A stretch of DNA of 55,287 bases from an uncultured Pseudomonadota bacterium (GTDB lineage: Bacteria > Myxococcota_A > UBA796 > SXON01), in NCBI GenBank assembly GCA_903921785.1, contig CAIXRH010000173.1, positions 1-55,287 on the forward strand, read 5' to 3'. Numbering within the stretch: position 1 is the stretch's first letter; every line of letters begins with the position of its first letter. Position numbers and translations under genes: made by a program. Under the pieces are notes generated by a model. That model searched no databases. It was not told where the DNA came from and was given only the letters and a program-made list of their open reading frames with translations. This document shows, piece by piece, positions 27,723 through 31,801 of the stretch.

Positions 27723-29824
27723 TCGTCCTCCCGGCGCACGGCCAACCAGAACACCGAGCCACCCCCGCGCGCTGGGTGGTAACCTACCTCGCCGTCAAGG
27801 GCGGTGGCCAGCGCCCGGCAGATGGAAAGTCCGAGTCCGGCGCCGCCGCGGGTGGTTCCCGGCCGGGCCTGTGCGAAACGAGTGAACAGCCGCGGTCGAA
27901 ACTCCTCCGGCACCCCGGATCCCTGATCCTTCACCTCGATCTTGACGAGTTGTTCGTCCTCGGTGGCGTGCACCACCACCTCGGCCCCCTCCGGGGAGAA
28001 CTGTATGGCGTTCGCCAAGAGATTCGCGAGGATCTGGCTCACCCGGTCGGGGTCGACGCGCACCCGGGCCGTGGCTTCGGCGTGGAGCGTGAGGCGCACC
28101 GCGTGCTGAGCGGCGAAGGGCGCGGCCACCTGCACCGCGTGCTCGAGCAGGGGAAGCAGGGCGTGCGTCCCGAGTCGGAGGCTGGCCCCCCCCGCGGCGA
28201 TCCGCTCGAGGTCGAGCACGTCGTTGACCAGCCGGACGAGGCGAGCGGAGCTGCGGCGCGCCAGCGTCACGAGGGAGGCTGCATCGGCGGGGAGCGGCCC
28301 GGTCGCGCCCGCTTCCAGGACGGCGAGGGCGCCGTCCAGCGAGGTGAGCGGGGTGCGGAGCTCGTGGCTCAGCGTGCTCACGAACTCGTCTTTTCGGCGT
28401 TCGGCTTCGGCGCGGGCCTCGCGGTTGTCGGTGAAGTCCAAAAGCGAGAGGAGCACGCGGCCGCCGGGCAGCGGCACCGCCGTGTTCACATACCAGCGGA
28501 TGCCGAGCGGCGTGACCATCCCGGCGATCACCCCGGTGACCGGCTGCCCGGTGCGTCGGCACCGTTCACTCGGTCGTTCCGTCGGTGAGGGGGCGGGGCC
28601 GTCGTGGACGACCTCCACGCGAGGCATCGGGAGCGGCGCCTCGGCGAGGGCGACCAGGTCGATCCCGAGGATCGCGGCGGCGGCCCGGTTCGCGTCCTCG
28701 ATGCGGCCATCCGGCCCGAAGAGGATCACCGCCTCGTGGAGGTTGTCCATGAGTGCCCGCCAGCGGGCCGAAGCGGCCTCGGCGCTCGCTCGGGCGGTCT
28801 GCAGGACGGTGACGTCCGCGAAGGACACCACCACCCGGCGATGCCCCGTGACCGGCTCGGCGCTCATCAACAGCCACCGTCGCTCCCCGTCGGGGCGCTC
28901 GTAGTCGAGGAGCTCTCCGCGCACCGACTCGCCATGGTGGAGCGCGCGCCACCCGGGCCACTGCTCCACGGCCAGGGGGGAGCCATCGGCACGCCGGATC
29001 GCGGGGCGGGCCTGCGCGTCCACCGCAGTGAGGGACTCGCGGGTGTGGCCGAGCATGGCGCACGCGGCCGGGTTCGCGTCCACGACCTGCAGGCGCTCGT
29101 TGAGCACCAGGACCCCTTCCCGGAGGGTGGCGAGCGTGGATCGCTGGAGGGCTCCGTCCGCCTGCGCTTCATCCTGGAGGCGCTTGTACTCCGTGATGTC
29201 AGTGAAGCTGATCAGGTACAAGTTCGGATTCCCGGGCAGCGGTGCCACGTGGTTCGCCAGCCAGAGCAGCCGGCCGGCCGCGTCGGGGACGCCGAGCACC
29301 CCCGCGTGGGCCTGGCCCGTGCGAAGCGTTTGGAGCACGGGGGAGCTCTCCGGACCGACGGACTCCCCCGCCTCGGTGACGCGCGAATCCATGTCGGTGC
29401 GGATGTTCCGCCCCACCACGTCCCGCCGGCCGAGCACCCGCTCGGCCACCGGGTTCGCGAAGACGATGGTCCCGTCCGAGCCGATGAGGACGATCCCCTC
29501 CGACTGGGCCGCGACGACCGCGGCCCAGGGCAGTTCGTCGGCCCCGGAGGGGGGCGGACCGTCGTCGTGGGGGAGCAGGAGGTCGGCGGCCCAATCCGCA
29601 GCGTCGGCCAACGTGGTCTCGTCCAGCGGGCCGTCTCCGAGCCCCACGCGGAGCGCGAAGCCCGGACGGGGCGTCAAGCAGCGTTCGTGCATCGCCGGAG
29701 ACGCCTCGCCTTCCAGGCGCAGGACCGGCTTCCCCGCCACCTCCGCGCTCACCCACGCCACCGCCGGCGCCGCCGCCAGGCGCCCCAACGCGCGCTCCAG
29801 CCGCGCCCGGAGCGCGGGCTTCAC
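27719..29824 (-). CDS. soluble PAS-PAS-PAS sensor histidine kinase
   Basis: This 701-residue kinase has no membrane helix, so it senses a cytoplasmic signal. Three PAS domains are at about 100-215 (SEGIVLIGSDGTIVFANPVA), 230-340 (LREGVLVLNERLQVVDANPA) and 355-465 (NLHEAVILFGPDGRIEDANRA). HisKA follows with His487 in FVSTLSHELRTPLTS. The ATPase domain has the N box (ILANLLANAIQFSPEG), DQGSGVPEE and GGAGLGLSICRAL. The start is GTG at 29824, overlapping the aldo/keto reductase stop as GTGA. The ligand is not evident. Confidence 0.93.
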   Translation of the reverse strand: MKPALRARLERALGRLAAAPAVAWVSAEVAGKPVLRLEGEASPAMHERCLTPRPGFALRVGLGDGPLDETTLADAADWAADLLLPHDDGPPPSGADELPWAAVVAAQSEGIVLIGSDGTIVFANPVAERVLGRRDVVGRNIRTDMDSRVTEAGESVGPESSPVLQTLRTGQAHAGVLGVPDAAGRLLWLANHVAPLPGNPNLYLISFTDITEYKRLQDEAQADGALQRSTLATLREGVLVLNERLQVVDANPAACAMLGHTRESLTAVDAQARPAIRRADGSPLAVEQWPGWRALHHGESVRGELLDYERPDGERRWLLMSAEPVTGHRRVVVSFADVTVLQTARASAEAASARWRALMDNLHEAVILFGPDGRIEDANRAAAAILGIDLVALAEAPLPMPRVEVVHDGPAPSPTERPSERCRRTGQPVTGVIAGMVTPLGIRWYVNTAVPLPGGRVLLSLLDFTDNREARAEAERRKDEFVSTLSHELRTPLTSLDGALAVLEAGATGPLPADAASLVTLARRSSARLVRLVNDVLDLERIAAGGASLRLGTHALLPLLEHAVQVAAPFAAQHAVRLTLHAEATARVRVDPDRVSQILANLLANAIQFSPEGAEVVVHATEDEQLVKIEVKDQGSGVPEEFRPRLFTRFAQARPGTTRGGAGLGLSICRALATALDGEVGYHPARGGGSVFWLAVRREDE

Positions 29825-30678
29825 GGCCGCCCTGGGAGGCCGAACGCGGCGTCCAGTCGGGTCGTCCACTCCGCGGACAGCGTGAGCGCCTCGGCGGCGA
29901 CGCTCGCCCGAAGGCTCGCTTCGCGTCGCGCGCCGGGGATGACGAACATCCTTGGGGAGAGGCTGAGGATCCACGCGAGGGCCACGGTGCCCGGGCCGAC
30001 GCCATGGGCCTGCCCGGCGGCGAGGAGCTCGGGGTGGGTGAGGACGTCCTCAAGCTGCTCCGAGCCGCCGACCGGAGAGTACGCGAAGAACGCGATGCCC
30101 CTGCCTTCGCAAGCCCGGAGCACGTCGATCGAGGAGAGGTCCAGCGGGTTGAGCCGGTTCTGCACGCTGACCACCGGGCCGATGGCGCAGGCCTCGCCGA
30201 GCTCCTCCACGCTCACGTTGGAGAGGCCGACCTCGGCGATCTTCCCCTCGGTCCGAAGCCGGAAGAGCTCGCCGACCGAGTCCGCGAAGGGGACGCCGGA
30301 GTCCGGCGCGTGGAGCTGGTACAGGGCGATCTGCTCCACGCCCAAGGCGAGGAGGCTCGCTTCGCAGGCGCGGCGGAGCGCGGCGGGACGGCCGTCTTCC
30401 ACCCAGTCCCCGCCGGGGCGACGCAGCCCGCCCTTGGTGGCCACGAGCACCTCGGACCGCGCCGGGTGATCGCGCAGCGCGGCGGCGAGGAGCCGCTCGT
30501 TGTGGCCGAGGTCGTCGTCATTGCGGCAGTACACGTCCGCGGTGTCGATCAGCCGCACGCCAAGGTCCAGCGCGAGGTGCAGCAGGCGCTCCGGATGCGC
30601 GGGTCGGGGGGGGAGCGAGAGCGGCATACCGCCGAGGCCGACGGCGGGGAACGAGCGGGTGCCAAGGAGGAGGCGCAT
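29821..30678 (-). CDS. aldo/keto reductase
   Basis: This 285-residue (alpha/beta)8 NADPH-dependent oxidoreductase has the full catalytic tetrad: Asp45 and Tyr50 in LIDTADVY, Lys82 in VATKGG and His123 in LYQLHAPD. GLSNVS and VVSVQNRLNPLD match the family's substrate and cofactor strands, and PGARREASLRA near the end binds the cofactor phosphate. It resembles general stress or sugar AKRs; the substrate is unknown. It is the first gene of the minus-strand operon with the kinase and regulator, and its promoter region is shared with the divergent radical SAM gene. Confidence 0.92.
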   Translation of the reverse strand: MRLLLGTRSFPAVGLGGMPLSLPPRPAHPERLLHLALDLGVRLIDTADVYCRNDDDLGHNERLLAAALRDHPARSEVLVATKGGLRRPGGDWVEDGRPAALRRACEASLLALGVEQIALYQLHAPDSGVPFADSVGELFRLRTEGKIAEVGLSNVSVEELGEACAIGPVVSVQNRLNPLDLSSIDVLRACEGRGIAFFAYSPVGGSEQLEDVLTHPELLAAGQAHGVGPGTVALAWILSLSPRMFVIPGARREASLRASVAAEALTLSAEWTTRLDAAFGLPGRP

Positions 30679-30725: not shown

Positions 30726-30754
30726 TTGCGGGAACCGGATTGTGAACATATGTT
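30726..30754 (+). promoter_or_regulatory. candidate promoter of the SPL-like gene, leaderless
   Basis: A -35-like TTGCGG (30726-30731) and a -10 TATGTT (30749-30754) are 17 nt apart. The -10 ends 6 nt before the GTG at 30761, so transcription would begin at or next to the start codon. No Shine-Dalgarno is present. The -10 lies within the SOS-type palindrome. Confidence 0.5.
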
Positions 30755-30756
30755 CA
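30743..30756. promoter_or_regulatory. perfect 14-bp palindrome TGAACATATGTTCA, LexA-box-like
   Basis: The core GAAC-N4-GTTC (30744-30755) is the classic Gram-positive LexA (SOS) box form, and the right half GTTCAG also matches the box described for Myxococcus xanthus LexA. It covers the proposed -10 of a DNA-repair-type radical SAM gene. LexA control is an inference from the motif and its position; the divergent AKR operon might share it. Confidence 0.6.
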
Positions 30757-30760
30757 GTCG

Positions 30761-31801
30761 GTGAAGCGTCCGGTGGCCAACCCGCCGTCCCCCTGGACGG
30801 GCTGGACCGAGTGGGAGGTGCCCCCGCCATCGGCTCGGCTCGAGGTCTTCCTCGATGCGTCCAAGACCATTCTCAGCCGAAACGACAGCCCCGACCTGCC
30901 GTTTCGTTACAGCGTGAACCCGTACCGGGGCTGCTTCCACGGTTGTGCCTACTGCTACGCCCGCCCGTCCCACGAGCACCTGGGCCTGGGTGCGGGCACC
31001 GACTTCGACTGGAAGCTCCTGGTGAAGCCGGAGGCGCCCACGCTCCTCCGCGCGGCGCTCCGCGCGCCGAAGTGGGTGCCGGAGGTGATCCTGTTTTCGG
31101 GCAACACCGACTGCTACCAGCCGATCGAGCTGCAATACCGGCTCACCCGAGCCTGCCTGGAGGTGTGCCTGGAGGAGGAGAACCCGGTCTCGGTGATCAC
31201 CAAGTCGGCGCTCCCCGAGCGGGATGTCGAGGTGCTGGCGGCGCTGGCCCGTGGCCCCGGCGTCACCGTCACCTTCTCCATCCCGTTCTTCGATCCGGTG
31301 GCCGCGCGCGCCGTGGAGCCCGGCGCACCGCCTCCCGCCCGTCGTTTCGCCGCGATGCGCACGCTCGCCGCCGCGGGGGTGCCCGTCGGCCTCAACATCG
31401 CCCCCTGCGTTCCTGGGCTCTCCGACCGTGATGTGCCGGCGCTCCTGCGCGCCGGGCGGGAGGCCGGCGCCACCTGGGCGATGCTCATGCCGGTGCGCCT
31501 CCCCGGCGCCGTAGAGCCCGTGTTCCGCGAGCGCATAACCGCCGCGTTCCCCGACCGGGCGGAGGGCATCCTCGCGAAAATCCGGCGGATGCGCGGCGGC
31601 GAGCTCAACGAGGGGCGGTTCGGGGAACGATTCAAGGGAGAAGGGGTAGAGTGGGAGGCCACCCGCGCGTTGTTCCACCTCTGGAAGGCGCGCCTTGGAT
31701 ACACGGATCCCCCGATGGCTGCCGCATCGCCGCCTCGGCAAAGGCGCGGCCCCGTACCGTCCGCGCAGCTCGCCCTCTTCACCCCCCGAGCACGCGGCTG
31801 A
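30761..31801 (+). CDS. spore photoproduct lyase-like radical SAM protein (PA0069-type)
   Basis: The 346-residue protein has the SPL/DNA-repair-photolyase-like signature: NPYRGCFHGCAYCYARPSHE, with the [4Fe-4S] cysteines at 58, 62 and 65 (CX3CX2C). This is followed by LLVKPEAPTLL, ILFSGNTDCYQPIE and VSVITKSAL. Members of this family resemble spore photoproduct lyase, which reverses a UV thymine lesion, but are common in non-sporulating bacteria and mostly uncharacterised. The start is GTG at 30761 or 30773. An SOS-type palindrome sits directly upstream. Its 3' end overlaps the convergent receiver-like gene by 23 bp. Confidence 0.9.
   Translation: MKRPVANPPSPWTGWTEWEVPPPSARLEVFLDASKTILSRNDSPDLPFRYSVNPYRGCFHGCAYCYARPSHEHLGLGAGTDFDWKLLVKPEAPTLLRAALRAPKWVPEVILFSGNTDCYQPIELQYRLTRACLEVCLEEENPVSVITKSALPERDVEVLAALARGPGVTVTFSIPFFDPVAARAVEPGAPPPARRFAAMRTLAAAGVPVGLNIAPCVPGLSDRDVPALLRAGREAGATWAMLMPVRLPGAVEPVFRERITAAFPDRAEGILAKIRRMRGGELNEGRFGERFKGEGVEWEATRALFHLWKARLGYTDPPMAAASPPRQRRGPVPSAQLALFTPRARG

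Follow-up and report, generated by a model that had tools for sequence, protein, structure and literature searches.

Results

The splB-like gene and the site in front of it

Here we describe a predicted LexA operator located directly in front of a splB-like gene, which codes for a radical S-adenosylmethionine (SAM) enzyme, on contig CAIXRH010000173.1 of an uncultured bacterium (assembly GCA_903921785.1). The whole contig of 55,287 nucleotides (nt) was analysed and is referred to as the window. The features concerned, with both promoter hexamers assigned by eye, are the following:

30726..30731, + strand: candidate -35 hexamer TTGCGG (kept as TTGC at an identical distance in 5 of the 6 core loci of the genus, genome G004 being the exception)
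30742..30757, + strand: predicted LexA operator GTGAACATATGTTCAG, which matches CTGAAC-N4-GTTCAG at 11 of its 12 specified bases and includes the palindrome 30743-30756
30749..30754, + strand: candidate -10 hexamer TATGTT, lying within the operator at a spacing of 17 nt from the -35, with 6 nt left to the start codon (TATGTT conserved in all 6 core loci of the genus)
30761..31801, + strand: splB-like gene, 346 amino acids, radical SAM enzyme closest to PA0069 with a CX3CX2C motif (C58, C62, C65), by profile and structure comparison

The protein matches PF04055 (radical SAM), and its nearest NCBIfam model is PA0069 at 354 bits, just below the cut-off of 360. For the AlphaFold2 model (mean predicted local distance difference test, pLDDT, 73.5; predicted template modelling score, pTM, 0.77) the best solved-structure match is spore photoproduct lyase (SPL; Foldseek E 4.5e-08). 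The lyase structure PDB 4FHC aligns with it at Z 19.7 over 278 residues with a root mean square deviation of 4.2, the next family reaching Z 15.7. The modelled protein thus combines a radical SAM fold closest to SPL with the CX3CX2C cluster motif, both shared with 4FHC; it differs in its low identity (14-15%) and weak sequence link, as the sequence profile reaches SPL chains only at E 0.36. "SPL-like" therefore seems a fair label for the model, while "SPL" would overstate it. The nearest titled splB relatives, a Deltaproteobacteria record (56%) and records of Myxococcales, Archangium and Corallococcus, suggest a myxobacterial source, but Planctomycetota records are close in identity.

The original prediction was of a perfect SOS-type palindrome over the -10 of this gene. 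The palindrome TGAACATATGTTCA is present at 30743-30756 of the + strand as part of the longer GTGAACATATGTTCAG at 30742-30757, and the 3' edge of the box is located 3 nt upstream of the GTG (30761) of the PA0069-like gene. The GAAC-N4-GTTC core, named in the prediction, is not significant by itself: the bare core GAACNNNNGTTC has a single copy in the window, the shuffle mean is 0.65, and at least one copy appeared in 45 of 100 shuffles. Palindromy as evidence was dismissed, since perfect 14-bp palindromes occur in the window (G+C 71.6%) at near the expected number, 14 being observed versus 12.2 (standard deviation 3.9). Unlike mere symmetry, the longer motif CTGAAC-N4-GTTCAG is rare in the window. 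At a threshold of at least 11 of 12 bases one site was found versus 0.05 expected from 40 Markov sequences, and at a threshold of at least 10 the same count of one stood versus 1.25.

Genome-wide, TGAACNNNNGTTCA has 8 exact copies versus 0 for its reversed control. For three of these eight sites (two on contig C236, one on C328) no target gene could be named. The genome count of GAACNNNNGTTC (97 versus 25 for the reversed form) was set aside because a reversed pattern does not control well for codon use. When one mismatch was allowed in the 16-base pattern, enrichment was seen in three relatives (5 versus 0, 10 versus 2 and 5 versus 0).

Promoter layout

TATGTT, if read as a -10, would place the transcription start at about the GTG at 30761. 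Each of the six core genus loci has a box with 11 or 12 of 12 bases, separated from the start codon by exactly 3 nt. Given this fixed spacing and the position of TATGTT, 6 nt from the start, the layout would suit a leaderless mRNA whose -10 is covered by the operator; the splB-like mRNA is accordingly probably leaderless, with the GTG near +1. In the same six loci the ATG within the box lies 11 nt from the start codon and hence out of frame, and the palindrome is kept there without coding constraint. In G006, as in a number of further genera, box and start ATG overlap (for example TATACTGACCAGATGTTCAAG).

Conservation of the box at splB

The box was scored as the best match to the 12 specified bases in the 120 nt upstream of the conserved NP codon. 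A search of 38 genomes from the genus, family and order gave a splB-like gene in 21, and the box is conserved at these orthologues as expected of a LexA operator: 16 of the 21 have a box matching at least 10 of 12 bases, and with the limit set at 9 the count is 18. By rank, the score of at least 10 is reached at 7/7 genus loci, at 5/9 in other genera of the family and at 4/4 scored loci in other families of the order (4/5 counting G027). For the Corallococcus family, 39 genomes were searched; the gene was found in 33 and 30 loci were fetched, three of the 33 matches giving no locus. Here 28 of 29 scored loci have at least 10 bases and all 29 have at least 9, with the box sitting further upstream, mostly directly 3' of TTGAC. 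We take this family to be the Myxococcaceae.

Nine titled myxobacterial splB loci all score at least 10; three of them (L074, L081, L142) overlap the Corallococcus-family set, and the nine were not added to it. Among homologues from other groups, assigned by record title, the box reaches 10 in 0 of 42 scored loci, the other 28 of 70 remaining unscored as the start motif was not found. Shuffles of the same upstream stretches attained a score of 10 in 0 to 1.25%. Two loci, L066 (of G027, 33% identity) and L116, were kept out of the group scoring after showing no box, and both are to be read as misses; L192 was excluded because too little DNA precedes the gene, although it carries CTGAACGGAAATTCAG.

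A chance palindrome or a promoter constraint, with TATGTT merely a -10 and the left half accidental, would draw on the abundance of 14-bp palindromes in the window and on the -10 inside the box. The left half, however, lies outside the -10 and is CTGAAC or GTGAAC at five of the seven genus loci, the exceptions being G002 (CTGACC) and G006 (CTGTAC). The box is moreover kept in the Corallococcus family despite its more upstream position, and none of the scored other-group homologues carries it. Retention of the site while the promoter position changes speaks against explaining it wholly by constraint on coding or on the -10, and we regard this explanation, largely contradicted by conservation, as hardly credible.

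Related boxes at other repair genes

The same motif precedes other SOS genes of the genome to which the window belongs. The uvrB gene (TIGR00631, 1039.6 bits) has CTGAACTTGCGTTCAG, matching 12/12; imuA-imuB has CTGAGCATATGCTCAG, matching 10/12; and dinB has two boxes, CTGAACGCTTGCACAG and CGATACATCTGTTCAG, scoring 10 and 9. ImuA was matched at 74.4 bits, below the cut-off of 150, and ImuB was identified by PF00817, while the best family models of dinB are those of DNA polymerase IV, with scores below their cut-offs.

Matches to uvrB were obtained in 25 genomes and 23 loci were taken for box scoring, of which three proved unreadable (G018, G019, G023); uvrB of G007 and G022 was left out, these matches lacking the 5' end or reaching the contig end. 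Of the 10 genus genomes with readable DNA ahead of uvrB, 8 have a box of 11 or 12. The stretch upstream of imuB holds sites scoring 9 to 11 in 8 genus genomes and, outside the genus, 10 to 12 in G018, G019, G021 and G022. The distance from box to gene start was established in G000 and G005; the others are the top-scoring sites of a stretch of at most 1.6 kb ahead of the match, or of the entire locus if short, L317 of G010 being left out.

A ruvB box, CTGAACTCCCGTTCAG, was found in G010 (RuvB identified by hidden Markov model) and a like site at ruvB of G007, recognized by similar sequence. In G006 (L054) splB and a RuvB-like frame, the latter read by eye, point away from each other on either side of one box, CTGTACAGATGTTCAC, which may serve both as a shared SOS operator. 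Further sites, with the genes named by eye, occur near a TetR-type gene (G004, G005, G010) and a DprA-like frame (G004).

With the conservation at splB and the boxes at uvrB, imuA-imuB, dinB and the relatives' ruvB, the predicted placing of an SOS operator on the SPL-like gene is supported. We consider it very likely, from these sequence comparisons, that GTGAACATATGTTCAG is a LexA operator placed over the -10 of this gene, where it would exert a repression that damage relieves.

lexA and recA

One LexA was found in the genome by PF01726 (TIGR00498, 218.9 bits with a cut-off of 111; S24 domain present). In the sister-genus genomes G015 and G017 the lexA promoter has the box CCGAACGCCCGTTCAG, of the same form as the splB motif. 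The lexA operators of the genus (L040, 1400-1500, and counterparts) have drifted to GTACAG-like repeats (spaced by 8 bp in G000); splB and uvrB of the genus, by contrast, keep near-perfect palindromes. A shift in LexA specificity was considered and found unsupported. The recognition helix has Q in 11 proteins (10 genus genomes and G012), all with drifted lexA operators, and H in 14 of the other 17; the LexA proteins of G018 and G027 also have Q, yet their lexA boxes keep GTTC.

At recA, candidate boxes of relatives are CTGAACACGCAATCAG in G010 (10), CTGAACATGCAAACAG in G008 (9) and CTGTACAAGTGTTCAC in G022 (10), and at a like position G000 has a left half-site only (CTGAACGTAAAATTTC). The recA promoters of the genus have a common element TTGCG(T/C)CCGTACAGGT, seen in G000 (L067, contig C360) and in G003, G004, G006, G008, G009 and G010 (the relatives' loci being L149, L150, L151, L153, L154 and L155); a CTGAAC half-site is kept further upstream in some.

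Points against a LexA operator

The observations that weigh against the assignment concern the regulatory genes, the spread of the box, the promoter and the comparison with Myxococcus xanthus. The proposed check, a search for the same box at lexA and recA, failed at both recA genes of the genome and held only in part at lexA: the lexA promoter has two tandem boxes, CTGGTCAGGCGCACAG and TAGTACAGGCGTACAG, both degenerate as they are across the genus, and the best boxes upstream of its two recA genes match 7 and 8 of 12 bases. The 16-base pattern with one mismatch shows no excess in the own genome (6 versus 8 in the control). At splB the score falls below 10 in G011, G029 and G027 (8) and in G013 and G015 (9), the best score of G013 belonging to an improbable box, CTGAACTACAGACCTG; no box was found at L116, a locus titled Myxococcales with a different N-terminus. 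Two genus genomes, G001 and G003, are misses at uvrB; for genomes beyond the genus the picture is mixed, with 11 in G014, 10 in G011, G015 and G025, and at most 9 in G012, G013, G020, G021, G024 and G026. In other genera the right half-box overlaps the start codon, so the match is partly coding there. As for the predicted overlap with a -10 and a +1 at the GTG, the constant 3-nt spacing in six genus loci speaks for it, while the hexamers are weak and a consensus scanner returned 0 promoters for the TTGCGG/TATGTT pair.

The M. xanthus SOS box, CTRHAMRYBYGTTCAGS (PMC9705874), agrees with 30742-30758 in 14 of its 17 positions by hand count, so the window site departs from that consensus at three. 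In M. xanthus, LexA failed to bind a recN box with two consensus changes, and splB is not named among the direct LexA targets in the parts of that paper available (PMC9705874); both facts argue against easy extrapolation. Our confidence was slightly lowered by the recN finding and by the uneven uvrB boxes of genomes from other genera. The missing recA box was weighed below the boxes at uvrB, imuA and dinB because in M. xanthus LexA reportedly controls few genes directly, with recA2 listed and recA1 not (PMC9705874), so that LexA does not control recA genes universally.

A damage-response box read by a repressor other than LexA, such as an XRE-family regulator as in M. xanthus, would agree with the drift seen in the genus, whose lexA operators no longer have the form that splB and uvrB retain, and LexA-independent control (PMC9705874) as well as a co-regulator, DdiA (PMC12288472), have been described in M. 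xanthus. Several sister genera nevertheless keep the motif at lexA itself, M. xanthus LexA binds boxes of like class at lexA and recA2 (PMC9705874), and the own genome yielded one protein with the LexA DNA-binding domain. We judge such a repressor improbable, and a LexA operator remains the preferred assignment.

The divergent aldo/keto reductase gene

On the other side of the site lies the following gene, a candidate for control by a shared operator:

29821..30678, - strand: divergent aldo/keto reductase (AKR) gene

The original prediction further proposed that the divergent operon of AKR, kinase and response-regulator genes could be under the same site. The AKR start lies 63 nt from the box in the window and about 33 nt in G002, and AKR homologues occur near splB elsewhere: in G030 and G017 they lie downstream, on the strand of splB, and in G015 one diverges from it at a distance of about 1 kb. 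Close divergence of AKR and splB is limited to 4 of the 7 genus loci, whereas the box follows splB, and no AKR turned up within the roughly 1.5 kb of flanking DNA retrieved for each of the 30 Corallococcus-family loci; a possible AKR -10, GATAAG (by eye), is located about 47 nt from the box. Joint control of the three genes by the operator seems to us unlikely. The AKR gene stands next to splB in several arrangements (29821-30678 of the window; L050, L053, L057).

Transposase genes with a similar box

In the own genome three genes for tyrosine transposases associated with repetitive extragenic palindromes (REP) have GTGAACATC(C/T)GTTCAC 2 nt before the ATG. The boxes are located as follows:

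L222, ~1500-1515; L231, ~1500-1515; L237, 1528-1543 (own contigs C21, C125 and C252): transposase boxes

The family assignment was checked for L237 alone (NF047646 at 74.8 bits with a cut-off of 80; PF01797). The layout is similar to that at splB, with TTGCCG 36 nt before the transposase ATG, the corresponding distance at splB being 35 nt. The three genes are paralogues, two being 89% and 78% identical to the third, and therefore do not make three independent cases. Tentatively, and with somewhat less than even confidence, we suggest that the LexA regulon may also take in these transposases, so that damage would switch on REP mobilisation. A literature search on REP transposases and LexA gave one paper, with rayT listed in an E. 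coli table.

Discussion

Control of splB genes by the SOS system is already known, in Alpha- and Betaproteobacteria (PMC3323433) and in Bacteroidetes (PMC8565304), and gene-neighbourhood links have been reported as well (PMC3765255). The locus described here has in common with these a LexA-binding motif at an SPL-like radical SAM gene and differs in the operator sequence; a myxobacterial splB is not named in the available parts of PMC3323433 and PMC8565304. A literature search, conducted mostly on records without full text, gave no report on SOS control of a myxobacterial splB. A link between Rv2578c and LexA may exist in Mycobacterium tuberculosis; a search for it gave no paper. A RecA-dependent "DNA repair photolyase" is named in that species, in one paper, without a locus tag. 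The predicted operator would extend a known mode of regulation to what is probably a myxobacterial group.

Compared with the M. xanthus LexA regulon (PMC9705874), the form of the operator and the presence of two recA genes are shared. The difference lies in the genes with the better boxes, which here are splB, uvrB, imuA-imuB and dinB, and neither recA.

In undamaged cells LexA would cover the -10 of the splB-like gene and block RNA polymerase. Upon DNA damage, activated RecA would induce self-cleavage of LexA and the site at splB would be vacated, after which a leaderless mRNA could start at or next to the GTG. The SPL-like radical SAM enzyme would then rise together with UvrB, ImuA-ImuB and DinB.

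If LexA acts at this site as predicted, a PA0069-like enzyme of SPL fold would belong to the damage response of bacteria other than those mentioned in the splB passages cited, within a predicted small SOS regulon of splB, uvrB, imuA-imuB and dinB. Such a placement would strengthen the case for the splB-like protein as a DNA repair enzyme.
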